A stretch of 64,000 nt of DNA from Rubricoccus marinus (GTDB lineage Bacteria; Bacteroidota; Rhodothermia; Rhodothermales; Rubricoccaceae), in the NCBI RefSeq assembly GCF_002257665.1, contig NZ_MQWB01000001.1, positions 370,502 through 434,501 of the forward strand, written 5' to 3'. The position numbers and the translations under genes are program-made. The notes beneath the pieces were generated by a model. The model was not told the DNA's origin and searched no databases. It worked only from the letters and a program-made list of their open reading frames with translations. Positions 3,594 through 30,705 of the stretch are shown one piece after another (position 1 is the first letter of the stretch; the number at the start of each line of letters is the position of its first letter).

Positions 3594-4538
3594 TCAGGCG
3601 GCGTTGGAGATGTCGCCGAAGATCATGATCGAGATGCGCACCCAGATCACGTCGGTGACGAGGATGAGGAGGCTGCTCACCACCACGGCTTGCATGGCTG
3701 CGCGGCCCACCTCGCGGGTGCCGCCGCGCACGTTGTAGCCCAGGAAGCAGCTCACGATGCCGACGATGAAGCCGAAGAGTGCCGTTTTACCGGTGTCCGA
3801 GACCACGTCCGCGATGCGGAGCGAGTCGAACGCCGTAGCGATAAAGACGCGGATGTCCATCCCGCCCGAAAGCGTGGCTTCCAGGTAGCCGCCAGCGAGG
3901 GCCAGTACGTCGGTGATAAGCGTCATGATGGGGAACATGATGACGCAAGCGAGGACGCGCGTGATGACGAGGTAGTGGAACGGCTTGAGCGCCGCCACCT
4001 CCAGCGCGTCGATCTGCTCGGTCACGCGCATCGAGCCCAACTCGGCGCCCATGCCGGCGCCCAGGCGTCCGGCGAGCACAAGGCTCGTGAGCACCGGCCC
4101 GATCTCTTTGATCACGCTCAGCGCGAGCATCGACGGCAGGAAGCTCTCAGCGCCAAAGCGCGCGAGCGTGCCGCGGCTCTGCATCGCGAGAACGATGCCG
4201 ATGGCGAAGCCGACCACGCCGGTCAGCATGAGGCTTTTGGAGCCCACCTCATCCATCTGGTTGAACAGCTCCTTGATCTCGTACGGGCGCCGCCACACCC
4301 GCGCGAAGTAGCGCCACGTGAAGCTGAAGAACGCGCCCGCGCGGTCGAAAAACCCGCCGCTGGCGGCCACGACGGCGCGCGTCTCGGCCTCGATCTCAAG
4401 GGCCTTCTGCTCGAAGTCCTTCTCTTGGAGGATCTTCTCGTTGAGGCGAGAGCGCCGCGAGCTGCGGAGCCGCTGCGTGAGCGAGTCCGAGAGGGCGGGC
4501 AGAGGGCCGTCTGGAGTGGGCTGGACCGGGGGCTCCAT
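3594..4538 (-). CDS. mlaE: MlaE family lipid ABC permease
   Basis: A 314-residue permease. The MlaE domain occupies about residues 85-310, with the conserved stretches GxxxGxxLAMQ, ESFLPSMLALSVIKEIGPVLTSL, AGRLGAGMGAELGSMRVTEQIDAL and the late GTREVGRAAMQAVV. A charged N-terminal extension of about 70 residues, partly coiled coil (EKDFEQKALEIEAETRA), precedes the membrane part. The frame is open further upstream to 5189, but that part overlaps the J-domain gene and lacks family similarity, so the ATG at 4536-4538 is chosen. It is first gene of the mla operon. Unlike most genes here it contains no copy of the CCTCTGGCG motif. Confidence 0.92.
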   Translation of the reverse strand: MEPPVQPTPDGPLPALSDSLTQRLRSSRRSRLNEKILQEKDFEQKALEIEAETRAVVAASGGFFDRAGAFFSFTWRYFARVWRRPYEIKELFNQMDEVGSKSLMLTGVVGFAIGIVLAMQSRGTLARFGAESFLPSMLALSVIKEIGPVLTSLVLAGRLGAGMGAELGSMRVTEQIDALEVAALKPFHYLVITRVLACVIMFPIMTLITDVLALAGGYLEATLSGGMDIRVFIATAFDSLRIADVVSDTGKTALFGFIVGIVSCFLGYNVRGGTREVGRAAMQAVVVSSLLILVTDVIWVRISIMIFGDISNAA

Positions 4539-4748
4539 GCGAGGTCGGAGGGGAAAGGGGAGGGTAACCCGTACGGGCTCAAAAGTCGAGAGGGGAGATC
4601 CTGAATGGGCCGCCGGGCCTCTGGCGCGCCGGGATTGCAACCCGCGCGGGGGTTGCTGGAACCCCACCCCGTCCACGCGGTGAGCGCCTCTCGTTACAAG
4701 AGGCTCAACGCGGCACGCCGCCGCAGCGTGCCCCGCTTTTGCTCCCTC

Positions 4749-5231
4749 GTGGCCGACTCCCGCGATCCGTTCCGAACGCTCCGCCTGCCTTACACCGCAG
4801 GGCCGACCGACGTACGCCAGGCCTTCCGGCGCCTCGCCTGGGAAGTGCACCCCGACCGGGGCGGCTCGGCGCGCGACTTCCACGACGTCCGCGTCGCCTA
4901 CGGCGCGCTCACCCAAGACCTCGAAGGCGCCCGTCGCCTCTGGCGCCCCCCGCCAGAGGCCGCGCACTCGCGCTACGCCGCCGGCCTGGACCCCAGTGAG
5001 TACCCGACCTGCCCGATCCGCGTCACGTCGGAGCGCGGGCGGCGGACCGTGGCGTACGACGTAGGCGCCCGCCCGCCGGAGTGGACGCCGACCCGAACCC
5101 CGCCGCCCGGCGGCACCTGCGTCGCGCGCGCCGAGGCGACCGAGGACACGCCCGCGTTCGGCGTCTGGACCGTTCCGCTGGACGATCACCGCTTCCGCTG
5201 CGTCTTCGGCCCGCCTCCCGCCGACACGTAG
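4749..5231 (+). CDS. J-domain (DnaJ-like) protein
   Basis: A small protein with an N-terminal J domain: DPFRTLRLPYTAGPTDVRQAFRRLAWEV… then the HPD motif essential for stimulating Hsp70 ATPase, then helix III (DFHDVRVAYGAL). The remainder (about 95 residues) is unlike DnaJ G/F, zinc-finger or substrate domains, so it is a stand-alone J-domain co-chaperone of unknown client. The start is uncertain. GTG at 4749 puts the J domain at the N-terminus; an in-frame ATG at 4605 has a better Shine-Dalgarno (GGGGAG at 4592-4597) but would add an Arg-rich, motif-derived stretch that includes a hairpin (stems 4637-4643 and 4650-4656). An inverted CCTCTGGCG/CGCCAGAGG pair is embedded in frame just after the J domain. 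Confidence 0.75.
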   Translation: MADSRDPFRTLRLPYTAGPTDVRQAFRRLAWEVHPDRGGSARDFHDVRVAYGALTQDLEGARRLWRPPPEAAHSRYAAGLDPSEYPTCPIRVTSERGRRTVAYDVGARPPEWTPTRTPPPGGTCVARAEATEDTPAFGVWTVPLDDHRFRCVFGPPPADT

Positions 5232-5238
5232 CGCTCAG

Positions 5239-5256
5239 GCCTCTGGCGCCAGAGGC
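5239..5256. repeat. 18-bp palindrome between convergent genes
   Basis: Perfect GCCTCTGGCGCCAGAGGC, 7 bp after the J-domain stop and 20 bp after the tamB stop on the other strand, so it could act bidirectionally. Confidence 0.9.
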
Positions 5257-5275
5257 CCATGGAGATCGCCAGGGG

Positions 5276-8200
5276 CTACCAGGCGATCTCCGTGCGGAGG
5301 CCGCCGCCGATGCCGCGCTCGCCGGAGTACTCGCCCTGCGCCAGAAGCCAGCTGTAGAGCTCGTAGTCCAGACCGGCCACGAAGCGGGTGTCATCGGTCG
5401 CGCTCCGGTCGGTCGGGCTCGGGACCACGACGTAGCCTAGCGAGGTGAAGAGGTCGCTCGTGAGGTACTTCCCGATGCGGATCACCAAGTCGGAGCCGTC
5501 GGAGTCGATCTCGACGAGGTCCAGGCCCAGGGCTTCACTCGCGACGCCTTCGACCAGGCCGGAGATCTGGCCCAGCGCCAGGCCCGTGCCCAGGCCCGTG
5601 ACGGCGTTGGCGCCGAAGAGGTCGCCGGAGAGCTGTCCCGTCGCGATCACCGAGACGATGTCGGCGGGGTCCGAAAGCTGCGGACTGCTGAGGCGGATCT
5701 CGGGGTTCTGGTCCAACTGGCCGATCACGCGCAGGTCGATCTCGATGGGGGATCGGACCGAGCCTTGTTTAAGCTTCGCGTCCAGCGTGGCCAGCAGGTC
5801 CACCCTGGCGCCCAGGGCGGAGCCGCCGTCGAAGACGAGCGTGCCGCGCTGGAGCTCGAACCGCTTGCCCAGCGTTTCCACGTTGCCGCGCACGAGGTTG
5901 ATGGTGCCCGAAAGGTTGCTGCCGTCCGCGAACGGGCGCTTGGACGCCTCCACGTCTCCGCTGAACTCGATGGCGAACGGCAACCCGGACTCGCTGCGGA
6001 TCCATACGTTGCGACGGATCTCGACGTCCAACTCGTAGTCCAGCGCGTCGGTAAAGCGGCTCACGGCGGTATCGCGCCTGGTGATGCGGCGGCCGAAGCG
6101 CGCCTCTACCAAGCGGAGCTGTTCGTTGGTGAGCTCGACGGGCTCCAACTCGGGCGGGACCAGCTCGTCCGTGAGGTAGATGTCGCCAGAGGCCAGCACG
6201 ACCGAGCCGCGTAGGACGGGGTTTTGAAGCGTGCCGGTAAGGCGGAGCGGGCGGCTGCCGCGGTCCAGAACCAGGCGGTCATACGTCCGCGTGTCGATGG
6301 CGACGAACTCGCTGGGCTGGATCGTGAGGTCCAACTCGCCGACCGACAGCTCCTGTAGCGTGATATCGCCCGTGACGGCCAGCTTGGTGTCGGTCGCGCT
6401 CGTGTCAGGGCTCGTGATCCGCACATCCTCCAAGAGGATCCGGTTGCCCTCGAAGCCGAGGTCAGCGTAGAGCGGGGCGTACGTCATGCCCGTCGCCGCG
6501 ACGCCGAGGCGCCCGCCGGTGAGCAGCGCGTTGCCCGTCAGGTCCGGGGCCTCTTGCGTGCCCGAGATGGTAACGTCCGCGCGGAGCGTGCCGCCGATGT
6601 CGGTGTAGCCTCTTGCGGCGAGGAACGGCTGCGCCCACGCAACGGGGAACGCGCCCGCTTGGAGACGGATCTGGACGCCCTCGTCCCCGGCGGCGTCTTT
6701 GAGTTCGGGGCTTCCGCCCGCGAGCGAGAAGTTGGTCGGGACATATCCCGTGATGAGGAGCTCCTCGCCGTCGCGGTGCGTGAGCACGGCGTCCAGGTCC
6801 AGCCGGCCGCTGGCGTAGTTCACCTGGGCATCCATCGCGCCAAAGAGCTCACCGTTGGAGGCGAGGTCTTCAAGCGTGATGGCGCCGTCGAGCAGCGGCG
6901 CCTCCGCCGGGCCGGTGAGGAGCAGCGTCGCGGAGAGCGTGCCGTCCAGGCTACCAAAGCCGACGAGGTCGGTGAGCACGCCGATGTCGACCTCCTCGGC
7001 GGTGAGCACGAAGTTCTGCTCGCCGTTCATGTTCAGCGTGCCGTCGGCGGCGATCTGCTGACCCGTCTCGGCGCTCTGAAGGAGCAGGCCGCGAACGCGG
7101 ATCACGTCCCCGATCAGGATGCTGCTCTCCTGCGCGAGGGACCACCGCGTATCGCCCAGGCGGAAGTCCGCGCGCTCCAGCAGCAACCCGAGCGCGCCCG
7201 GCGCCACGTCCGGCTCCGGGTCGATCTCGACGCGCGCGTTGAACGCCACGTCACGGTCCTGGTCCACGATGACGTTGCCCGCGAGCTGGATGTCCTCGCC
7301 GTCGTAGCTCCCGGTTAGCTCCCCGCTCTGGACGCGGAGCGAAGCCGTTTGGAGCAAGTCAAACCTGGCATCGAGCTGTACGCTGAGCCCGCTACCGTTG
7401 AGGAGTTCCTGCGGGTCCACCGTCGCCGCCAGCGTGGCGTCGAGCCCGGTGAGAAGGAGGTCGCCAGCGGCGAAGGTGCGGGCCTCGGCCGTCCCGTTGA
7501 TGCTGAGCGGCTCGCCGGCGAGCCCCTGGATGCGGAGGTCGAGCGCGACGCGGTCGGCGGTGAGCGGCCGGTTGGCGTAGGCGGAAAGCGGGGAGAGGTC
7601 AGCGGCTTCGCCGACGAGGTGGAAGTCGGTCGCGGCGGTCGTGTCGAAAACGGCGATCTGGCCGCCGCCGTTGAGCGTCGCGATGTCCGATTGGAGCAGG
7701 AGCGTGTCCAACCGGAGCGTGCCGCGGTCCAGCGCGAAGTCCAGCGTGAGCGCTTGGATCTGCGCGAACGCGATGGCGGACGGCTGCGCCACGATCTCGC
7801 CAGAGGCCACGGCCTCCAGAGGGTCGAACCCGACGCCTTCGACGTTGAAGTCGGCGGAGAGTTGGAGCGGCTGCGTGGGGGCCGAGGGCAGCAGCGCGTT
7901 GACATCCAAGAACTCCGTGCGGCCGGTCAGCGCGTAGGTGGGCTCCTCGGCAAAGGGCCGGCCCTGGAAGACCGCGTACAGCGAGCTGGCCTCTGGCGCC
8001 TCGGCGCCCGCGATGGCCGAGGCCGTGGGCACAAAGCGGAGGTCGACCGTCGCGCCAACGGCACCGTCGTTGAGCGAGAACGAGATCTGCCCGCCCGAGA
8101 CCTCGGCGGCGTTGATGGTGGAGGGCCGGAGCGTGATCACGCCCGAGCCATCGGCGACTTCGGGATCGAAGCCGGAGATCGCCCCGCGGAAGCAGCCGTT

Positions 8201-19814: not shown

Positions 19815-22445
19815 ATGACGCATCCGCTACTCCTCTCCCTGCGCACCTCTTGGACGCGTCCAGAGCCACACCCCTCCCGCTGGGTCCGTCTCGCGACGGC
19901 GCTGGCTCTCGCCGTGCTCGTGCTGGCCGCCCCTCGCGTCCAAGCGCAGGCGCAGGTCTCGCTCCCCATCACGTTCGAGAGCGGTGACGCCACGTTCTAC
20001 GAGCTGTTCGACTTCGAGGGGGCGGATTCCGACATCACCGCGGACCCCACGGACGCCTCCAACAGCGTCGTGACGACTGTACGGCCCGCGGGCGCCGGGG
20101 GCGTCGCCGGTACAACGGTCGCGAACGACAACGGCTTCACCCAGCGCGTCCCGTTCGCCTCTGGCGCGACGACGATGAGCGTGCGCGTGTGGTCGCCAGA
20201 GGCCGGCGTTCCGGTCCGCTTCAAGTTGGAGAAGTTCAACGACCCGACGATCACCGTGGAGGCCCAGTGCCCGACGACAACAGCGGGCGGCTGGGAGACG
20301 ATCACCTATGACTTTATCACCGACAAGGTGCCAGGGTCCGCTGATCTCAACTTCAACAGTGAGTACTCCAAGGCGACCATCTTCTTCGACTTCGGGCTCG
20401 AGAACGCGACGGAGGCCACGACCTACTACTGGGACGACGTCGCCTTTGGAGGTACGGCCGTCGAGGGCGGGTGCCGCCCGCCGCCGCCTGGCCCCACCGT
20501 CGCACTTCCCGTCACGTTTGAGGACGGCGACCGGGCGTTCTACGAACTCCGGGACTTCGGCGGGAACGCATCCCAGTTGATCGCCGACCCCACCGATGCC
20601 TCCAACACGGTCGTGGAATCCATCCGTGGCGCCAACGCCCCCTTCTTCGCCGGCACGACGGTCGCCGACGCGAACGGCTTCACCACGCCGATCCCGTTCG
20701 CCTCTGGCGCGACGACGATGAGCGTACGTGTCTGGTCGCCAGAGGCCGGCATCCCCGTTCGGTTCAAGGTCGAGAACGCGGGCAACAGCGGGATCAGCGT
20801 GGAGGCCCAGTGCCCGACGACGACCGCGATGGCGTGGGAGACGATCACCTATGACTTCGTGGCGGACAAAGTCCCGAATACGGCCGACATCAACTTCGCG
20901 AACGAGTACACGAAGGCGTCGGTCTTCTTCAACTTCGGCCAGGAAAACGCGCCGACGCCGACGACCTACTACTGGGACGATGTCTCCTTTGGCGGCACGG
21001 CTGTGCCGGGCGGCTGCAACAACGCCACCAGTGGTGGTGACACCATCGCCGAGGCCCGCGCTGCGGGCGCCGGAACCGAGGTCACGCTTACGGGGGTGGT
21101 GACCCGCGCAGAGGGCGCGTTCGCCTACGTGCAGGACGCCACGGGTGCCATCACGGTCCGCCAGACCAGCGGCGCGTTTTTCGCCGAGATCGCGGCGGGC
21201 ACCATCGCGGCAGGAACGCGCGTCACCCTCGTGGGCACCACGAGTGAGTTCCGCGGCCTTTTCCAGCTCAACGAGGGAGGCCTCGCGAGCTACACCGTGG
21301 ACGGCGTCACCGACGTGCCCGCTGCTCAGAGCATCACGCTCGCGGAGCTCGCGAGCAATGGCGAGGCGTACGAAGCCGAACTCGTGGAACTGACCGGCCT
21401 CACGGTTGCCGAGACCGGCACGTTCTCCGCGGGCACGAACTACACCGCCACCGACGACTCCGGCACGGGCACGCTCCGCATCCCGAACGCGAACGACACC
21501 GCGCTTGAGGGGACGGACATCCCCGGCGCCGCGTTCACGTTTACGGGCGTCGTCGGTCAGTTCACGACCGCTACCCCGGCGACCGACGGCTACCAACTCC
21601 TCGCCATTGCGGAGGGCGACGTGCTCGCGCCGCCGATGCCGGTGGTCTCGCTCCCCATCCGGTTCGAGAGCGGGGACGCCGACTACTACGAGCTGCAGGA
21701 CTTCGGCGGCAACGCCTCCACGCTCGTCCCCGACCCGGAGGACGCGAGCAACACCGTCGTGCAGTCCGTCCGCACGGCCACGGCCGCATGCTTTGCCGGC
21801 ACGACGGTCGCCGACCGGACCGGCTTCACCGCGCCGATCCCGTTCGCCTCTGGCGCGACGACGATGAACGTACGTGTCTGGTCGCCAGAGGCCGGCATCC
21901 CCGTCCTCGTTAAGGTCGAGAAGGCCGGGACGCCGGAGATCAGCGTGGAAACGGTGGCCACAACGTCGGTGGCGGGAGCATGGGACGTCCTCGTGTTTGA
22001 CTTCGCGAACGAGCGGACAGGCACGGCCGCGCTCAACCTCGACTCGGAGTACACGAAGGCCTCGATCTTCTTCAACTTCCGGTGCCCCGATGAGACGCCG
22101 GTGGCAGAGGCGACCTACTACTGGGACGACCTCGCCTTTGGCTCGGCGCCCCCGGTCAGCGCGGAAGAGACGGCCGCGGCTCAGAACGTGGAGCTCGCGC
22201 AGAACTCTCCGAACCCGTTCACGGCTCGGACGACGATCCGCTTCTCGCTGAAGGCCCAGGGCGACGTGCAACTGCACGTCTACAACCACCTCGGGCAGAA
22301 AGTCGCAACCCTGGTGGACGGCTCGGTGGCCTCTGGCGACCACGCCGTCTCGTTCGACGCGACGGGCCTCGCGAGCGGGATGTACTTCTACCGCCTGCAG
22401 CACAGCGGCTCGACCGTCACGCGGACGATGGTGTTAACCCGCTAG
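19815..22445 (+). CDS. Secreted T9SS protein with three carbohydrate-binding-like modules
   Basis: An 876-residue secreted protein. After a signal peptide (ending about residue 46, APRVQAQ) there are three copies of a module of about 175 residues, near 47-220, 233-405 and 612-770. Each begins VxLPxxFExGDxxxYEL and carries FASGATTMxVRVWSPEAG and a closing TTYYWDDVxFG. Such modules are common in marine Bacteroidetes polysaccharide-related proteins, where they are thought to bind glycans. Between copies two and three lies an OB-like domain (EARAAGAGTEVTLTGVVTRA…, about 410-600). The last 80 residues form a Por/T9SS type A sorting domain (ELAQNSPNPF…GMYFYRLQHSG…VLTR). A relatively AT-rich leader (19720-19790) precedes the start. 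It ends at a strong terminator. Confidence 0.8.
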   Translation: MTHPLLLSLRTSWTRPEPHPSRWVRLATALALAVLVLAAPRVQAQAQVSLPITFESGDATFYELFDFEGADSDITADPTDASNSVVTTVRPAGAGGVAGTTVANDNGFTQRVPFASGATTMSVRVWSPEAGVPVRFKLEKFNDPTITVEAQCPTTTAGGWETITYDFITDKVPGSADLNFNSEYSKATIFFDFGLENATEATTYYWDDVAFGGTAVEGGCRPPPPGPTVALPVTFEDGDRAFYELRDFGGNASQLIADPTDASNTVVESIRGANAPFFAGTTVADANGFTTPIPFASGATTMSVRVWSPEAGIPVRFKVENAGNSGISVEAQCPTTTAMAWETITYDFVADKVPNTADINFANEYTKASVFFNFGQENAPTPTTYYWDDVSFGGTAVPGGCNNATSGGDTIAEARAAGAGTEVTLTGVVTRAEGAFAYVQDATGAITVRQTSGAFFAEIAAGTIAAGTRVTLVGTTSEFRGLFQLNEGGLASYTVDGVTDVPAAQSITLAELASNGEAYEAELVELTGLTVAETGTFSAGTNYTATDDSGTGTLRIPNANDTALEGTDIPGAAFTFTGVVGQFTTATPATDGYQLLAIAEGDVLAPPMPVVSLPIRFESGDADYYELQDFGGNASTLVPDPEDASNTVVQSVRTATAACFAGTTVADRTGFTAPIPFASGATTMNVRVWSPEAGIPVLVKVEKAGTPEISVETVATTSVAGAWDVLVFDFANERTGTAALNLDSEYTKASIFFNFRCPDETPVAEATYYWDDLAFGSAPPVSAEETAAAQNVELAQNSPNPFTARTTIRFSLKAQGDVQLHVYNHLGQKVATLVDGSVASGDHAVSFDATGLASGMYFYRLQHSGSTVTRTMVLTR

Positions 22446-22525: not shown

Positions 22526-24685
22526 CTAGCCCGCCAGAGGCCTCTGGCGCGCGGCTGCGAACACCGTCTCAGGATCGACGCGGTCCGGGAGTGGCCCGAC
22601 GCGCGCGAGCTTGAGCGCGGCGAGGCGTCCGCCGGAGCGGGCGCAGGCCTCTGGCGCGAGGCCGCGGAGCCACGCGGCGAGGAAGCCTGCCCAGAAGGCG
22701 TCGCCCGCGCCCGTCGCGTCGGCGACGGATTCTAGCGGCTCGGCAGACACGTCGGCGCGACCGCCGTCCCAGGCGACGAGGGCGCCTTCGGAGCCGCGCG
22801 TGAGGCACACGAGCGTGGCGCCCCAGGATAGGAGGCGCTCGCAGATGGCGTCGTCCGGGAGCGTTTCGCCGAACAGGCGCTCGGCGTCGTCGCGGCTGGC
22901 CTTCGCCAGAGGCCCGAGCGCGAGGAACACGCGCGCCGTAGCGCCGATTTCGGTCCGCTCGTCGCGCGAGCGCGGCGCCACGTTGAGGTCGATGCTGAGC
23001 GTGGCGCCCGCGGCCGAGGCGCGGGCGGCGCCGTCGAGCAGCGTCGTGCGCGCGGGCTCGCGGGAAAGCGCGAAGCCCGACGTGTGGAACAGACGCGCGC
23101 TCGCCAGGAGCGAGTCGGGAAGCTGGCCGGGCGCGATGCGGCGGTCGGCGTGGCGAAAGAGCGCGAAGTCCGGTGTGGCGTCGGTCCGCGTGACGGTTAC
23201 GACGGAGGTGGGGGAGTCCGTGATCTCTTGGAGCCGGGCGTCCACGCCAGTGGCCTCAACCGAGCGGCGCAGAAAGCGGCCGAAGCCGTCGTCGCCCACG
23301 CTCGCCACGAGCGCGGTCGGCACGCCCAGCCGCGCGAGGTTGGTCGCGAGGTTGGCCGCGCTGCCGCCGGCGTGGCGCTCGAACATCGCCGCCTCGCCGA
23401 GGCCGCTGGCGGGCTCGGCCGAGAGGAGGTCCACCAGGATCTCGCCTGCGACGACGACCTCTGGCGCGCCGCCCTCCGCCAGAGGCACGGCCGGGGCTGG
23501 CGCGGCCTCTGGCGGGGACCACCAGTCCGCGAGGCGTCCGTCGATCGCTGCCTCTGCGAGGACTTCGCCCGCGGCGCTCCACGCCAGAGGCGTCGTGCCG
23601 TGAGGCGCGCCCTCGGGGTCGAGGTACTCGGGGAAGCCGCCCATGCGGTTCGCGGCGGCGAGCGCGTCCGCGAGGCCTCTGGCGTCGGCCTCGCGGCCGG
23701 ACTGCGCGAGCGCCGCCACCCACCAGCCGTTCACCATCGGCCACGCGCCGCCGTTGTGGTAGTGGCCGGGGCGGTTGGAGAAGCGGTCGCGCACGTTGGC
23801 GCGGAGCACGTCCCACTCGGCGTCGCCCTCGCGGATCACGGGGTCGAAGGCGGGGACCAGCCCGCTGCTGCCTCTGGCGAGACCCAGCCCGTGGTCCAGG
23901 AGCGGCGCGGAGCGCTCTCGCCAGAGGCCCCCGAGAAGGGCGACCGCGGAGCCCAGTGCGTCGAACCGGCGGGCGTAGCCGCCGGGCGTGAGGCCCGCAA
24001 ACGGGAACGGCTCGGCGCCTTCTCCGAGCGCCCGCCGGAACGCCTCAGGGTGATACGCTGCCTCTGGCGCGCCGCCCTCGCGTGGCCAGAACGTGGCCTC
24101 AATAGTTCGGCGGAGGTCGTCGGCCTCGCGCTCGGCGTCGCCGTTGTCCGCCGCCAGAGGCGCCCACTGCTGGAGCGCGAGGAGCCGCAGCGCTTGGTCG
24201 AAGAGGAGGTAGCCGTGGAGGTCGTACTCGTCGGCCCAGTCGCCGGACTGCGGGACGTAGACGAGGCCTCGGGCGTTGAACTCCCACGCGCGCAAGAGGC
24301 GCAGCACGCCACCCACGGCGGGCGCCATCTGGACCGCGAAGCCGCGGTCGCCGGTCAGCCGTGAGTAGAGCGCCACGCCGAGCACGAACCACGGCCCGGC
24401 GTCCACGCGCCCCGCGAGGCCGCCATAGCTCACGGCCTCCGTCTCGCCAGAGGACGAGACCGCTACGTTGGACGGCACCTGTCCCTCGGGGCCGAGGTGA
24501 TCGGCGAGCGTCTGCAGTGTTGCGCGGAGGCCTCTGGCGAGGTCGGCGTCGCCAGAGGCGAGCCCGGCGAGGCCGCAGATCACGCCGTCCCGCGCCCACA
24601 CGCGCCGGTAGTTCGTCGTGTCCTCCGGGGAGGCGACGTACCCGGCGGGCGTGAGCGAACGGCGCAGAAGGTCGAGGGCGGTCAT
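22526..24685 (-). CDS. Fusion: invertase-like glycoside hydrolase + PfkB fructokinase-like kinase
   Basis: A 719-residue bifunctional protein. Residues about 1-385 form an (alpha/alpha)6-type glycosidase domain with TNYRRVWARDGVI, SYGGLAGRVDAGPWFVLGVALYSRLTGD, YVPQSGDWADEYDLHGYL and YHNGGAWPMVNGWW. The last block matches the YHNGGSWP of GH100 neutral/alkaline invertases. A Pro/Ala linker (about 385-410) made from three copies of the dispersed motif joins a PfkB/ribokinase domain (VVVAGEILVDLL, GGSAANLATNLARLG, NVAPRSRDER, and the catalytic DATGAGDAFWAGFLAAWLRG near 655-672). Sucrose split to glucose and fructose, with fructose phosphorylated by the same chain, is the simplest reading; the exact glycoside is inference. 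Neighbouring symporter, TonB receptor and LacI genes support sugar use. No signal peptide, so cytoplasmic. Confidence 0.82.
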   Translation of the reverse strand: MTALDLLRRSLTPAGYVASPEDTTNYRRVWARDGVICGLAGLASGDADLARGLRATLQTLADHLGPEGQVPSNVAVSSSGETEAVSYGGLAGRVDAGPWFVLGVALYSRLTGDRGFAVQMAPAVGGVLRLLRAWEFNARGLVYVPQSGDWADEYDLHGYLLFDQALRLLALQQWAPLAADNGDAEREADDLRRTIEATFWPREGGAPEAAYHPEAFRRALGEGAEPFPFAGLTPGGYARRFDALGSAVALLGGLWRERSAPLLDHGLGLARGSSGLVPAFDPVIREGDAEWDVLRANVRDRFSNRPGHYHNGGAWPMVNGWWVAALAQSGREADARGLADALAAANRMGGFPEYLDPEGAPHGTTPLAWSAAGEVLAEAAIDGRLADWWSPPEAAPAPAVPLAEGGAPEVVVAGEILVDLLSAEPASGLGEAAMFERHAGGSAANLATNLARLGVPTALVASVGDDGFGRFLRRSVEATGVDARLQEITDSPTSVVTVTRTDATPDFALFRHADRRIAPGQLPDSLLASARLFHTSGFALSREPARTTLLDGAARASAAGATLSIDLNVAPRSRDERTEIGATARVFLALGPLAKASRDDAERLFGETLPDDAICERLLSWGATLVCLTRGSEGALVAWDGGRADVSAEPLESVADATGAGDAFWAGFLAAWLRGLAPEACARSGGRLAALKLARVGPLPDRVDPETVFAAARQRPLAG

Positions 24686-24805: not shown

Positions 24806-26398
24806 CTACCAGAACAGCGCGACGACGACGAACGTGAGCGCGACCAACGCGGCGCCCTGGACGCGGTAGTTCTGCCACCACGGAAGCGCGCGGAGCGCCT
24901 CCGAGTCCTCGCGCCAGAGGCTCGGCGTCCACGTCACGTCGGCGATCTTGGCCATGTCCGGCGCGGGCTGCGCCTTGCTCATCAGGATGAGGACGAGGCC
25001 GCTGGCGAGGAGCAGGATGCCCGGGATGTAGAGGAACGGGATCGCGATCGCGCCCAGAACGGGCCCCAGGATGAACAGCAGTGCCGAGGTCGCGTGGCCT
25101 GCCATGAGGCTCCAGAAGGCCGCGCCAGAGGTCGCCCGCCGCCAGAACACGCCCACGACGAAGAGCGCCACGAACGGCGGGACGACGTAGGCCAGGAAGC
25201 TCTGGAGGTAGCCCCAGAGCGTGTCGAACTGGAGGATGATGGGCGCCCAGACGGCCGCGAAGACCATAAACACGAGCGTCACGATCCGGCCCACATTGGC
25301 GAGCTGCCGAGAAGTGAACGCCGGGCGGAAGCGCTTGACGAAGTCCATCGTCACGAGCGTCGAGGCGGAGTTCAGCGTGCTGTCTACGCTGGACATGATG
25401 GCCGCGACCATCGCCGTCAGCACGAGCGCGCGGATGCCGCCCGGGAGCAGGTCGAAGACCATCGTCGGAAACACGGCGTCGGCGCGCTCCAGGCCGGGGT
25501 AGAGGACCCGCGCGAACGTCCCCGGAAGCACCATCAGGAAGATGACCGGCAGCTTGAGCAGGCCCGCGAAGAGCGCACCCCAGCGACCCTGGTTGAGCGT
25601 GCGCGCCGCCAGCGTCCGCTGCACCATGAACTGGTTGGTCGCCCAGAAATAGAAGCCCAGGATGAACACGCCCGTCAGCAGACCCGGCCACGGCATCACG
25701 GGGTCGTTCGCGGGCAGGATGAGCGAGAGCTTGTCCTCTGGCGTGACTGCGGTCACTGCCTCCCATCCGCCGCCGGCCTGGATCGTGGTCCAGCCGATCC
25801 ATGCCACGGCCGCGCTGCCCGCCAGGAGCAGGATCGCCTGCACGGCGTCGGTGTAGACGACGGCTTTGAGGCCGCCCGCGATCGTGTAGAGCCCTGCGAC
25901 CAGCGCGAGGATCGCGATGCTGAGTCGCATGTCCACGCCCGGGTAGATCAGCGCAATCACGAGCGAGCCCGCGTAGAGCGCCGAGGCGGTGTCGACGGTG
26001 ATGTTCAGGAAAACCGTCCAGCCCGAGAAGTAGAGCCGGCTGCGCCCGTCGAAGCGGCGCTCCAGAAACTCGGGGAGCGTGTAAATCCCCGTCTTGATGT
26101 AGAACGGCAGGAAGAACGCGCAGAAGATGACGAGCACGATGCCCGCCATCCACTCGTAGTTGAACACGGCCACGCCCATGCCGCCGTACGCCTCGCCGGC
26201 CATGCCGACGAGGCTGGAGGTGCTCATGTTGCTCGCGAACAGGCTCAGCCCGATCACGCCCCAGCCCAGCGAGCGGCCCGCGAGGAAGTAGTCGTCGGTG
26301 GATTCCTGCTTGCGGCCGATCCACAGGCCGAAGAGCACGATGCCGAGGACGTAGACGCCGATTACGGCGAGGTCCAGCGTGGAGAGGGCGAAGTCCAT
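24806..26398 (-). CDS. Sodium:solute symporter (SSS family), probable sugar transporter
   Basis: A 530-residue inner-membrane symporter with about 14 helices. SSS features include DYFLAGRSLGWGVIGLSLFASNMSTSSLVGMAGEAY near residues 36-72, YTLPEFLERRF, AGGLKAVVYTDAVQ (the family signature GGLxAVxxTDxxQ), FWATNQFMVQRTLAA and AAIMSSVDSTLNSASTLVTMD (Na2 site Ser/Ser/Thr). Sequence features resemble the SGLT/glucose-type branch, and its position between the glycosidase-kinase fusion and the TonB receptor suggests it imports the oligosaccharide or sucrose. The frame extends to 26479, but MDFALSTLDLAVIG at 26398 is the natural start. Likely part of the LacI-controlled unit. Confidence 0.9.
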   Translation of the reverse strand: MDFALSTLDLAVIGVYVLGIVLFGLWIGRKQESTDDYFLAGRSLGWGVIGLSLFASNMSTSSLVGMAGEAYGGMGVAVFNYEWMAGIVLVIFCAFFLPFYIKTGIYTLPEFLERRFDGRSRLYFSGWTVFLNITVDTASALYAGSLVIALIYPGVDMRLSIAILALVAGLYTIAGGLKAVVYTDAVQAILLLAGSAAVAWIGWTTIQAGGGWEAVTAVTPEDKLSLILPANDPVMPWPGLLTGVFILGFYFWATNQFMVQRTLAARTLNQGRWGALFAGLLKLPVIFLMVLPGTFARVLYPGLERADAVFPTMVFDLLPGGIRALVLTAMVAAIMSSVDSTLNSASTLVTMDFVKRFRPAFTSRQLANVGRIVTLVFMVFAAVWAPIILQFDTLWGYLQSFLAYVVPPFVALFVVGVFWRRATSGAAFWSLMAGHATSALLFILGPVLGAIAIPFLYIPGILLLASGLVLILMSKAQPAPDMAKIADVTWTPSLWREDSEALRALPWWQNYRVQGAALVALTFVVVALFW

Positions 26399-26506
26399 AA
26401 CGGATTGGGCGGACGGAGTGGGAGAGTCGGGAGCCTCTGGCGAGCGGAGCCGGTGGGCTTCGGCCAGTGGCCGGTGCAAACTCGAAACGCGTTGCGCGGA
26501 ATCAGA

Positions 26507-26786: not shown

Positions 26787-29420
26787 TTAGAAGCCGTACC
26801 GCAGCGAGGCCGAGATCGAGCGGCCCGAGATGGAGCGCGCGCGGATGTAGCCGTTGCCGGGGATGGCGCCTTCCTCACTCTCGGTGATGCCGATGGAGTC
26901 GAGGAGGTTGTTGGCCGAGAGGCCGAGCGAGAGCGCCGGGGTGATGTTGGCCTCGGCGAACGCGTTGAGGATCACGAAGCTCGGGAGGACGAGCTCGTTG
27001 GAGTCCTGCGCATAGCTCTCGGTCTGGCCCAAGAGGCTCAGGCCGAGCGTGCCCCGGTTGTCCATCGTGTAGGAGGGCACGAAGCTGAACAGGAAGTCCG
27101 GCTGGCGGCGAGGCGTGTTGCCCTCGTTGCCGCCAGAAGTGATCTCCGCCGCGGTGTAGGTCGTCGCGCCGCGGAAGTTGAACGGACCGTAGTTGACCAC
27201 GCCCTCTACCTCCACGCCGAACGCCTCGTAGTCGTTGTCGATGAACTCCTGCGTGGTGGCTTCAAAGCCGCCCTGCTCGGTCGTCTTGGCGTAGAAGCCG
27301 GTCACGAACACGCCGCCGATGGGGAACTGCTGCTTGTAGCCGAGCTCGGCCTGCTGCAGCTGGTCGTACGGGTTCTCGATACCGAGCGCGTCCACGCCGA
27401 TGTAGCTCCCGGTCGGGAAGATGGCGCGGTCGGCCTTGGCGGAGTGGCCCTGGCTGACGCGGGCGAAGACCGCCGAGGCGTCGGTGAGGGTGTAGTTCGC
27501 GCCAGCGGAGAAGGACCAGTAGTCGTAGTCGTAGTCGACGGGGTTGCGGCTGGCCTGGTCGATGAAGTTGGCGCGGCTCTCGGGCTCCGAGATCTCGCCG
27601 TCCTCGTTGACGTCCACCTCACCGACGAACCCGCCGGAGCCGACGCCGGTCACGCTCCCGAAGTCGTAGCGGACGCTGCCGTCCAGGCTGAGCTGCGGGA
27701 TGGGGGAGTACGCGATGGCCGCGTAGGGCGCCTTCACGTCGTAGGTGGCGTCGAAGCGCACGCCGCAGCAGTTGCCGAAGAACAGCGCGCCGTAGGCTGC
27801 GAGTCCGTCGTCGGTGAGCATCGTGCCGTCGTCGTCCATCACGTCCACGAGGGAGGCGTTGTCGCCCTCCACGGTAGAGATGTACGAGTTCCAGAGCCAC
27901 GCCATGTTGATCCGCTGGATGCCCGTGAAGAGGCCTGCGGTCAGCGTGAGGTCGAGGTCCATGTCCGCGAAGCTTTTCGAGAGGCTCGCGTCGTTGAACA
28001 CGGTGTTGAAGTTCTCCAACTCGGTGTCGAAGAGGACAATGCCCTGGAGGAGGTCCCCGCTGACGGCGTTTCCGTTGTCGGCGCGGGTGAGCGTCGCGTC
28101 GGAGAGGTCACGGCCGGAGGCGTCTTCGAGCGCGCCGAGGATGGCGTCGCGGTCGCCGACGGCGGCGGTGAACGGCGAGACGAAGCGGCCGGAGTTGAGC
28201 GCGAAGCGCCCACGGTTCTCTAGCTGGAAGCCGTTGCCGAGGTCAAACGAGAACTCGACGCCAGCGGCCGAACTGACCGGGTGCAGGCCGTCCGAGAGGT
28301 TGACGCGGCGGCGCTGGCCGTCGGCACCGAGCCCGAAGTTGCTCAGGAAGCGCGCGCTGCCGATGGCCTGGTCGTTGATGCCGAGCGTGCCGGCGTCGGA
28401 GAACTCGGGGTTCTCGTTGGAGCCGCTCACCGCGATGGGCTGCGGGAGGTACGTCGGCGTGCGGTCGTTGAGGTACTTCGCATAGACGCGGGCGTAGCCG
28501 CGCTCGAAGAACTTGGTCATGTTGGCCTTGATCTGGCCGCCTTGCTGGGCCGTGTAGCCCAGGTCGCGCTCGCCCTCACCGGAGCGGAAAAAGCCGCCGA
28601 CGTGGAACGCCAGGCCGTCGCCGAAGGGCGAGCCCGCCTCGAAGTCGACGCGCTGGAAGTTGTAGTCCAGGCCGCCCGTGGTGGAGATGCTGCCGCCTGC
28701 GACCTGGCCGTTCTTCGAGATGAAGTTGATGATGCCTGCAGGCGAGTTCGAGGCGCGCGTAGACGCCGAGCCGCCGCGGATGGCCTCGATCCGCGCGACG
28801 CTCTGGTCTGCGCGGAGGAACCCGTCGGCCGTGCCGAAGGCGATGTCGCCGTACATGAAGATGGGCAGGCCGTCCTCCTGGAGCTGGAGGTACTTGGAGC
28901 CGCCGGCCGAGATCGGCACGCCGCGAACGGTGATGTTCGTGTTGCCGTCACCTGCGGACGCCTCGGAGCGGATGCCCGGGATCGCGCGGAAGATCTCCGC
29001 CGTGTTGCGCGGGACGACAAGCTCGGTGGCCTCTGGCGAGAGCGTCGAGATGGAGACGCTGCTGTTGAGCTTCGAGACCGGGTTCACAACGCCGGTGACG
29101 AAGACCTCGCCGAGCCCGAGGGCGTCGGGTGAGAGCTGGAAGTCGCGGGTGAGCGTGCCGCCGGAGAGCGTCACGATCTCGCGCTCGGAGCCGTAGCCGA
29201 CGAACGTCGCCTCCAGCGTGACCTCGCCGGTCTGCGTGGTGGTAAACGTGTAGCGGCCGTCGAAGTCGGTCGCGTCGCCAGAGGCGGACCCGGCGATGAT
29301 GACGGTCGCGCCGATCAGCGGGTCGCCGTTCTCGTCGGTGACGGTGCCCTGCACGGTGGTCTGCGAAGCGGCAGAGCCCGCGAGGAGCGTGAAGAGGAGC
29401 AGGGTAGCGGCTCGTAGCAT
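26787..29420 (-). CDS. TonB-dependent receptor with carboxypeptidase-like regulatory domain
   Basis: An 877-residue outer-membrane receptor. Signal peptide MLRAATLLLFTLLAGSAASQ; a CarboxypepD_reg-like beta-sandwich (about 21-105, VQGTVTDENGDPLIGATVIIAG…FVGYGSEREIV); a plug domain (about 115-245, VPRNTAEIFRAIPGIRSEA…, IRGGSASTRASNSPAGIINFISKNG); then a 22-strand barrel ending in …ISASLRYGF with a terminal Phe. The N-terminal domain is also found in SusC-type receptors, but no SusD lipoprotein gene lies in the window, so it probably works as a stand-alone TBDT. The frame continues upstream to 29768 without a leader, so ATG at 29418-29420 is chosen. Candidate LacI operators precede the start by 29-128 bp. 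The likely cargo is the sugar handled by the neighbouring fusion enzyme. Confidence 0.9.
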   Translation of the reverse strand: MLRAATLLLFTLLAGSAASQTTVQGTVTDENGDPLIGATVIIAGSASGDATDFDGRYTFTTTQTGEVTLEATFVGYGSEREIVTLSGGTLTRDFQLSPDALGLGEVFVTGVVNPVSKLNSSVSISTLSPEATELVVPRNTAEIFRAIPGIRSEASAGDGNTNITVRGVPISAGGSKYLQLQEDGLPIFMYGDIAFGTADGFLRADQSVARIEAIRGGSASTRASNSPAGIINFISKNGQVAGGSISTTGGLDYNFQRVDFEAGSPFGDGLAFHVGGFFRSGEGERDLGYTAQQGGQIKANMTKFFERGYARVYAKYLNDRTPTYLPQPIAVSGSNENPEFSDAGTLGINDQAIGSARFLSNFGLGADGQRRRVNLSDGLHPVSSAAGVEFSFDLGNGFQLENRGRFALNSGRFVSPFTAAVGDRDAILGALEDASGRDLSDATLTRADNGNAVSGDLLQGIVLFDTELENFNTVFNDASLSKSFADMDLDLTLTAGLFTGIQRINMAWLWNSYISTVEGDNASLVDVMDDDGTMLTDDGLAAYGALFFGNCCGVRFDATYDVKAPYAAIAYSPIPQLSLDGSVRYDFGSVTGVGSGGFVGEVDVNEDGEISEPESRANFIDQASRNPVDYDYDYWSFSAGANYTLTDASAVFARVSQGHSAKADRAIFPTGSYIGVDALGIENPYDQLQQAELGYKQQFPIGGVFVTGFYAKTTEQGGFEATTQEFIDNDYEAFGVEVEGVVNYGPFNFRGATTYTAAEITSGGNEGNTPRRQPDFLFSFVPSYTMDNRGTLGLSLLGQTESYAQDSNELVLPSFVILNAFAEANITPALSLGLSANNLLDSIGITESEEGAIPGNGYIRARSISGRSISASLRYGF

Positions 29421-29448
29421 GGCTGGGGAGTCGGTGTGGAGAGGTCTC

Positions 29449-29460
29449 GGAAGCGGTTCC
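29449..29460 (-). promoter_or_regulatory. Candidate LacI-family operator 1
   Basis: On the minus strand the site reads GGAACCGCTTCC, with perfect GGAA/TTCC arms around a central CG, the usual geometry of LacI-family operators. It lies 29 bp upstream of the TonB receptor ATG, where it would block transcription. Confidence 0.55.
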
Positions 29461-29497
29461 AACACTCCGATTCTCGTGTGGGGAGGCCTCTGGCGCC

Positions 29498-29505
29498 AAG
29501 CGCTT
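29498..29505. promoter_or_regulatory. Candidate LacI-family operator 2
   Basis: AAGCGCTT is a perfect 8-bp palindrome centred on CG, in the context CCAAGCGCTTTC, halfway between the receptor and lacI starts. It directly adjoins a copy of the CCTCTGGCG motif. Confidence 0.45.
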
Positions 29506-29522
29506 TCGCCGCAATACCTTGC

Positions 29523-29548
29523 ACAACCGTTTGCGGAATCGTTTGCGG
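29523..29548 (+). promoter_or_regulatory. Direct repeat CGTTTGCGG x2, candidate regulator site
   Basis: CGTTTGCGG occurs at 29528-29536 and again at 29540-29548, a 12-bp period. Both copies sit in imperfect palindromes centred on CG (ACAACCGTTTGC and GGAATCGTTTGC), matching the style of operators 1 and 2. The following 25 bp are the most AT-rich of the gap and could hold a promoter. Confidence 0.4.
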
Positions 29549-29679
29549 TGGATAAGTTGTCCGTCGTTTCTCTGGACCTTCGCGCACCCCGTGGCCTGAT
29601 GTGGTCATGCGCCGGGTCCGCCGAGGCGCCGGCCCTCCCAAACCGGCGCGGTTTCTCCCGCCCCCTCAGCCCCCTGGCG

Positions 29680-30705
29680 ATGAAGCGCGTCACCATCAAA
29701 GACATCGCCCGGTTGTTGAGCGTCGCTCCGTCCACGGTCTCCCGCGCGCTAGCGGACCACCCGGACATCGGGCCGGAGACGAAGGCCCGCGTGCGCGAGG
29801 CGGCGAAGGCGCTGAACTACATCCCGAACCTCCGCGCGCGGTACCTCCGCTCCCAGCACTCCCGCCTCGTGGCGCTCATCGTGCCGGAGGTGAACATGTT
29901 TTTCGTGCCCTCGCTGATGACGGGCGTGGACCACGTGCTGCGCGAGAACGACTACTCGCTTTTGCTCTTCGAAAGTGACGACTCGATCGTGCAAGAGCGG
30001 AAGCTGGCGCAGCTCTGCCTCAACCTCTCGGTGGACGGCGTGCTCCTCGCGCGCTCCTCGGAGACGACCGAACTCTCGCACCTCGACGCGCTCGCCGACG
30101 CGGACCTCCCGGTCGTGCTCCTGGACAAGATCCTCGATACCGACCGCTACTCCACGGTCTCGACGGACGGGCGGGACGCCGCCCGCCGCGCGACGGGCTA
30201 CCTCCTGGACCGCGGCCACGAGCGCGTGCTCGGCGTGTTCGCCGACGACCGCCAGAGGATCTCCGTGGTCCGCGCCGAGGGCTTCCGGCAGGCGTTCGCC
30301 GAGCGGGACCTGCCTCTGGCGGAGAGCGCCATCGTCCACGTGCGGCACCTGGCGGAATTCGAGGCCCTGGTCGGGCGCGCGATGGATGCGCACCCGGACG
30401 CGACCGGGCTGTTCGCGATGTCTGACGAGCTCCTGGTCCGCTCCTACCACGCCGTTCTCGCCAGAGGCCGCGCGATCCCGGACGACGTCTCGCTCGTGGC
30501 GATCTCGGACGGCCGGGCGCCGGAATTTCTGTTCCCGCGGGTGACCCACCTGTTGCACTCGGGCAAGGAAGTGGGGCAGAAGGCGGCGCACATCCTCGTG
30601 GGCATGATGCGGCAGCACTACGCCGGCGCCGCCCTCGCGGTCACAGTCCGCACGGAGCTCGTGGAGCACGAGTCGGTGCGCGTGATCGGGGCGGAGGTGG
30701 GGTAG
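29680..30705 (+). CDS. LacI family transcriptional regulator
   Basis: A 341-residue repressor. The N-terminal helix-turn-helix and hinge are textbook LacI: VTIKDIARLLSVAPSTVSRALADHPDIGPETKARVREAAKALNYIPN (shown here as the span 4-50), followed by a periplasmic-binding-protein-like sensor domain (RLVALIVPEVNMFFVPSLMTGVD, DLPVVLLDKILD, ATGYLLDRGHERVLGVFADD, FAMSDELLVRSYHAVLARGRAIPDDVSLVAISDG). The start ATG at 29680 places the HTH at the N-terminus; the open frame further upstream is not conserved. It is divergent from the TonB receptor and probably represses the sugar locus until the inducer binds. A motif palindrome lies 6 bp after its stop. Confidence 0.94.
   Translation: MKRVTIKDIARLLSVAPSTVSRALADHPDIGPETKARVREAAKALNYIPNLRARYLRSQHSRLVALIVPEVNMFFVPSLMTGVDHVLRENDYSLLLFESDDSIVQERKLAQLCLNLSVDGVLLARSSETTELSHLDALADADLPVVLLDKILDTDRYSTVSTDGRDAARRATGYLLDRGHERVLGVFADDRQRISVVRAEGFRQAFAERDLPLAESAIVHVRHLAEFEALVGRAMDAHPDATGLFAMSDELLVRSYHAVLARGRAIPDDVSLVAISDGRAPEFLFPRVTHLLHSGKEVGQKAAHILVGMMRQHYAGAALAVTVRTELVEHESVRVIGAEVG

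Follow-up and report, generated by a model that had tools for sequence, protein, structure and literature searches.

One gene in the 64-kb window (the whole stretch of Rubricoccus marinus DNA analysed here) encodes a GH100-type glycoside hydrolase joined to a PfkB-family kinase. The C-terminal half of the product is probably an ATP-dependent sucrose 6F-kinase and its N-terminal half a sucrose-6F-phosphate hydrolase, as judged from conserved residues, gene neighbourhoods and the exchange of partners among relatives. A sequence-only reading of the same DNA had proposed the opposite order, in which a fructoside is hydrolysed and the released fructose then phosphorylated. This is probably wrong, given the loss of an arginine that binds fructose O2' and the presence of IcSPP-like sucrose-6F-phosphate phosphorylases beside related kinases in genomes devoid of a PTS; the sucrose-related role that it assigned was right. 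It also seems rather likely that many Bacteroidota and some members of other phyla possess a PTS-independent, phosphorylate-first sucrose pathway running from a PfkB sucrose 6F-kinase to a GH100-type sucrose-6F-phosphate hydrolase. Elsewhere the same logic would be realised with a P-loop kinase resembling that of AgaSK, or with a sucrose-6F-phosphate phosphorylase. If true, sucrose 6F-kinase would be a new specificity for the PfkB family, and sucrose-6F-phosphate hydrolase a new one for GH100.

Architecture of the fusion protein

The fusion gene is located at positions 22526..24685 on the minus strand and encodes 719 amino acids from an ATG start, without internal stop. The GH100-type hydrolase domain spans residues 1-385 (23531..24685, minus strand) and is followed by a poorly conserved linker (about residues 386-406; 23468..23530, minus strand) and by the PfkB kinase domain (residues 407-719; 22526..23467, minus strand), of which residues 407-705 make up the complete PfkB unit. 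The protein starts with MTALDLLRRSLTPAG, showed no signal-like N-terminus when inspected by eye, and is predicted by sequence to be cytosolic.

Domain searches of both halves returned Glyco_hydro_100 for the N-terminal half (36.9 bits, Pfam cut-off 23.6) and PfkB for residues 409-698 (151.4 bits, cut-off 25.8). The Pfam MGH1-like model also passed (34.5 bits, cut-off 27), as a local match confined to residues 306-370. The motifs YHNGG, GGSAAN and GAGD start at residues 309, 440 and 659, respectively. In the AlphaFold model of the fusion protein (pLDDT 92, pTM 0.72), residues 1-390 resemble InvA and InvB of Anabaena and the Arabidopsis neutral invertase NIN2 (Z 37-40, rmsd about 3); the (alpha/alpha)6 fold was matched by 5goq with a Z of 39.8 and an rmsd of 3.0 over 377 residues, and 6ttj gave a Z of 39.6. 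Residues from about 405 to 715 resemble solved PfkB kinases (Z 34-39). The uninterrupted reading frame, the Pfam score, fold and YHNGG motif of the first half, and the score, GAGD and GG motifs of the second thus bear out the earlier claim that an invertase-like GH100-type domain and a complete PfkB kinase are fused in a single polypeptide.

Sugar-binding residues of the kinase half

The predicted catalytic base of the kinase half is D662 (codon 22700-22702), in the GAGD anion-hole motif region. In the fructokinase of V. cholerae, VcFRK, R176 binds O2' of fructose (PMC6240065), a contact that bears on sucrose because O2' is its glycosidic oxygen. The residue at this position in the fusion protein is A570 (codon 22976-22978). 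All 64 kinases of its clade have A, S, H or T there, while 16 of 18 other PfkB kinases have R. The remaining members of the fructose-binding set of VcFRK (D26, D30, N49, R176, D266), which is thereby incomplete in the kinase half, are kept (D30, N49, D266) or conservatively replaced (D26 by E). The kinase half is similar to the PfkB fructokinases of H. orenii (3hj6) and V. cholerae in its fold, GAGD anion hole, GG motif and most sugar contacts, and differs from VcFRK by an alanine in place of R176. Since the fructose-O2'-binding arginine is lost throughout the clade, the kinase is likely to act on intact sucrose.

The closest solved kinase is 3hj6 (280 bits), whose label as a fructokinase weakens the kinase-first reading, although 3hj6 keeps the arginine. 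The kinase of locus L122 also keeps the arginine; it lies outside the clade and is the sole one observed next to a GH100 of classical type with a fused phosphatase. None of the NCBIfam substrate-specificity cut-offs was reached by the kinase half: the best score, 141 bits, was obtained with IolC (5-dehydro-2-deoxygluconokinase, TIGR04382; cut-off 300), and fructokinase NF006957 gave 109 bits for a cut-off of 450.

Exchange of partners around the kinase and the hydrolase

Of the acceptors tested, IcSPP is active on fructose-6-phosphate only, and docking and mutagenesis pointed to its residues R152, K364 and K434 as the likely contacts of the substrate's phosphate (PMC6720575). In five flavobacterial-type genomes, a kinase of the clade is the neighbour of a GH13_18 enzyme. 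The GH13_18 enzyme of G290, which was examined in detail, shares 60% identity with IcSPP (304 of 508 aligned positions) and has the residues matching R152, K364 and K434 as well as the YYQ motif. A phosphorylase of this kind was found at E<=1e-60 in exactly 5 of the 394 genomes sampled from the phylum, and the clade kinase is located 27-35 nt upstream of it in all five. The chance figure for this association is 4e-8, which overstates independence since four of the five genomes belong to one genus. PTS EIIC is absent from all five genomes, as is GH100 save for one 22-bit partial match in G243. With the phosphorylase adjacent and neither PTS EIIC nor GH100 in these genomes, the clade kinase is the evident supplier of sucrose-6F-phosphate, and its association with an enzyme akin to a strict sucrose-6F-phosphate phosphorylase argues for a sucrose kinase acting before cleavage.

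Within one genus, the kinase of G290, whose partner is the phosphorylase, is 74% identical to the kinases of G366 and G120, whose partner is GH100-like. Phosphorylase-paired and GH100-paired kinases interleave on the kinase tree, and LacI, a TonB receptor and an MFS transporter are common to the GH100 operons of G366, G120 and G369 and to the phosphorylase operon of G153. The simplest reading of these comparisons is that the phosphorylase and the GH100-like enzyme would share one substrate, sucrose-6F-phosphate, the IcSPP-type enzyme (PMC6720575) standing in for the GH100-like one in otherwise similar operons. The two differ in that the phosphorylase belongs to GH13_18, has a fold unrelated to that of the GH100-type hydrolase and forms glucose-1-phosphate.

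The kinase is exchanged too: P-loop kinases replace PfkB beside GH100 in 11 loci and in one fusion. The profile of these P-loop kinases gave 98 bits with an AgaSK-type sucrose-kinase homologue, encoded together with a phosphorylase of its own on a plasmid of Agathobacter rectalis (L169), versus 59 bits with the best solved uridine-kinase-like protein. This relationship to the sucrose-kinase domain of AgaSK speaks for a sucrose kinase. A fecal phage record (L167) was discarded, since its gene is an unrelated uridine-kinase-like one.

Four genomes weaken the kinase-first reading, as they have a clade kinase with neither GH100 nor phosphorylase in the genome (G284, G233, G396 and G223; loci L158, L159, L160 and L161). 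In L158 and L160 this kinase adjoins an MFS transporter.

Residues of the hydrolase half

D152 (codon 24230-24232) and E353 (codon 23627-23629) align with the catalytic pair of InvA, Asp188/Glu414 (PMC6995568), and both are invariant in an alignment of 30 sequences. The hydrolase half has the fold, this Asp/Glu pair and YHNGG in common with the GH100 alkaline/neutral invertases (InvA and InvB of Anabaena, plant CINV). It differs from them in being linked to a kinase, in sharing only about 23% identity, and in lacking, like the rest of its clade, a segment whose arginine (Arg430 in InvB) helps the catalytic Glu. Residues S72, S86, R93 and R139 also differ from those of classical GH100 invertases. 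S72, S86, R/K93 and R/K139 were considered as a proof of the kinase link and rejected, for they are common to eight phosphatase-linked GH sequences, mostly from Patescibacteria; for the same reason, these residues are no proof of phosphate binding. These eight GH loci, which adjoin a sucrose-phosphate phosphatase instead of a kinase, weaken the kinase-first reading. The glucosylglycerate hydrolase model NF047898 scored 20.7 bits, below its cut-off of 550.

Distribution and origin of the fusion

The same fusion is intact in two other genomes of the family (G006 and G004, 65% identity), so it is not an assembly accident. In G008 the kinase half lies at a contig end and the contig stops in the linker, so the gene there may be either fused or separate. 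Of the 9 family genomes examined, 4 gave matches at E<=1e-40; the congeneric species was not among them. A tree built from 88 GH sequences supports the fused clade at 100/100 and places beside it, as its sister group (100/98), Salinibacteraceae, Rhodothermaceae and one MAG (GSL.Bin2), which have GH and PfkB as distinct neighbouring genes. The fusion would derive from two such neighbouring genes, still split in the sister lineages.

We surveyed the loci of the best 80 relatives taken from species genomes. A PfkB gene adjoins the GH gene in 52 of them, with a median gap of 9 nt, and the survey of relatives suggested earlier thus did reveal two separate adjacent genes. A P-loop kinase is the neighbour in 11 loci and a sucrose-phosphate phosphatase in 8; one locus (L117, a Mucilaginibacter MAG) contains a GH/P-loop-kinase fusion and one (L122) a phosphatase/GH fusion. 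None of these partners was found in 7 loci, three of which lie at or near contig ends. These counts indicate that hydrolase and kinase are functionally tied. The fusion of L117 (positions 4435-6291 of that locus), which joins a GH100-like domain to a P-loop uridine-kinase-like kinase, is independent of the one described here; hydrolase-kinase fusion thus arose at least twice, with different kinases.

Fusions of a sucrose-phosphate phosphatase (S6PP) domain to a classical-type GH100 were observed in L039 (8620-10701), L040 (2983-5058) and L122 (2533-4644); downstream of the fusion in L039 lies a gene for a glycosyltransferase of family GT4 that contains a sucrose-synthase-type domain. An S6PP-type phosphatase directly follows the GH100-like gene in L057, L068, L071, L076, L088, L090, L095 and L106, mostly from Patescibacteria. 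No record with the fusion was found in plasmid and phage collections, and no GH100, P-loop kinase or phosphorylase on viral contigs.

Genomic context and proposed pathway

Upstream of the fusion gene and in the same orientation lies a gene for an SSS-family sodium:solute symporter, a predicted inner-membrane importer (24806..26479, minus strand), whose true start is possibly internal, near 26398. It is accompanied by a TonB-dependent receptor, a predicted outer-membrane importer (26787..29768, minus strand) that probably starts near 29420, and by a LacI-family regulator divergent from the operon (29296..30705, plus strand), in which the LacI domain extends from near residue 133, about position 29690. 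LacI and the TonB receptor, with an SSS or other transporter, are kept in many relatives, and a divergent LacI recurs in relatives. The locus has the make-up of a sux-type carbohydrate utilisation locus: a TonB receptor and a transporter for uptake, an enzyme for sucrose and a regulator of the LacI family. The sux locus of Xanthomonas campestris, a proven sucrose locus, also combines a TonB receptor, an inner-membrane transporter, an intracellular sucrose enzyme and a LacI regulator, its enzyme being an amylosucrase where the present locus has a kinase and a hydrolase (PMC1790865). Elsewhere in the same genome we found a candidate ROK glucokinase; the genome contains no GH32 invertase, and hence no alternative invertase of that family. 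The convergent neighbour of the fusion gene (19815-22445, plus strand) encodes a protein of 876 aa in which CBM35-like stretches recur and a Por secretion sorting domain occupies the C-terminus.

In the proposed pathway, sucrose would enter through the TonB receptor and then the SSS symporter, under LacI control. The PfkB domain would phosphorylate intact sucrose at the fructosyl C6, the position expected because O6' faces ATP in the VcFRK geometry, and the GH100-type domain would hydrolyse the resulting sucrose-6F-phosphate to glucose and fructose-6-phosphate, the glucose being phosphorylated by the separate ROK glucokinase. The phosphate may be placed at a position other than 6F, as the product of AgaSK has been reported as sucrose-6-phosphate. 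Channelling between the two domains, or any other benefit of their fusion, is conceivable; leakage of fructose, which had been suggested as the problem that the fusion prevents, would not be the issue since the proposed intermediate is charged.

Alternative readings

The main rival is an invertase-fructokinase, in which the GH100 half would cut sucrose and the PfkB half would phosphorylate free fructose, with the same net outcome. The GH100 fold with a catalytic pair aligned to that of the sucrose-cleaving InvA, the fructokinase name of the nearest solved kinase, the four VcFRK positions kept or conservatively replaced, and the phosphatases encoded beside other GH100 genes, which make free sucrose, would all be in agreement with it. 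We nevertheless consider it unlikely, because it does not account for the loss of the O2'-binding arginine in the whole clade, for the IcSPP-type phosphorylases next to clade kinases in PTS-less genomes or for the loci where a protein akin to a sucrose-kinase domain takes the place of the kinase, and because the NCBIfam fructokinase score is far below its cut-off. Hydrolysis of another alpha-glucoside or alpha-mannoside (such as mannosylglycerate, glucosylglycerate or mannosylfructose), where the kinase would use either the part set free or the substrate as a whole, appears improbable: the structural matches are invertases with Z of about 40, and the partners found are sucrose-phosphate phosphatase, sucrose-6F-phosphate phosphorylase and an AgaSK-like kinase. 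The MGH1-like match above its cut-off and the breadth of the PfkB family, in which IolC gave the top NCBIfam score while remaining below its own cut-off, are what such a reading could draw upon.

An accidental fusion of independent domains that gain nothing from being joined would be compatible with either chemistry. The short and poorly conserved linker, a pTM of only 0.72 for two well-folded domains and the rule of unfused adjacent genes could be explained in this way, but the conservation of the fusion in three species at 65% identity and the separate origin of a hydrolase-kinase fusion in L117 make it very improbable.

Comparison with AgaSK and significance

AgaSK of Ruminococcus gnavus (Bruel 2011) carries an alpha-galactosidase and a sucrose kinase in one polypeptide; its locus also has a sucrose-6F-phosphate phosphorylase, and the genes are separate in Clostridium sp. 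L2-50 (PMC7688924, PMC6521584). AgaSK likewise joins a glycosidase to an ATP-dependent sucrose-phosphorylating domain, and the association of a glycosidase with a sucrose kinase is thus already known. The families and the hydrolase substrate are different here: AgaSK consists of GH36 and a P-loop uridine-kinase-like domain, the present fusion of GH100-type and PfkB-type domains, and the hydrolase, unlike the glycosidase of AgaSK, is proposed to act on the product of its own kinase. Neither a GH100-fructokinase fusion nor a PfkB sucrose kinase was found described in the open-access literature searched.

If the sucrose-kinase reading holds, the genes that are likely to pass for a fructokinase and a GH100 invertase in many Bacteroidota genomes would encode a sucrose kinase and a hydrolase of phosphosucrose. 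Cells would then retain sucrose by phosphorylating it independently of a PTS, as AgaSK-bearing gut bacteria do with a different kinase, and this would explain how a strict sucrose-6F-phosphate phosphorylase is fed in PTS-less flavobacterial-type genomes. The hydrolase-kinase fusion would also be usable for making sucrose-6F-phosphate or fructose-6-phosphate.

Repeated motif in the linker

The linker had been described as consisting largely of motif copies, with the suggestion that these may have favoured the joining of the halves or be a trace of it. The linker DNA does contain CCTCTGGCG/CGCCAGAGG in three copies; a role in causing or marking the fusion was rejected, since the motif is a genome-wide, species-specific repeat and G004 and G006 retain the fusion in its absence. 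The window holds 211 copies of the motif, and the decamer CGCCAGAGGC is found in 14,176 copies in the 4.43-Mb genome (G000), about 3.2 per kb, for 61 copies of the reversed control. Three relatives (G004, G006 and G001) contain 40 to 99 copies of the decamer, with 40 and 74 in the other two fused genomes, and the 9-mer is present at 0 to 0.17 per kb in the fusion neighbourhoods of these two. The congeneric species has only 99 copies of CGCCAGAGGC; the decamer is a species-specific, highly iterated motif distributed in both genic and intergenic DNA.
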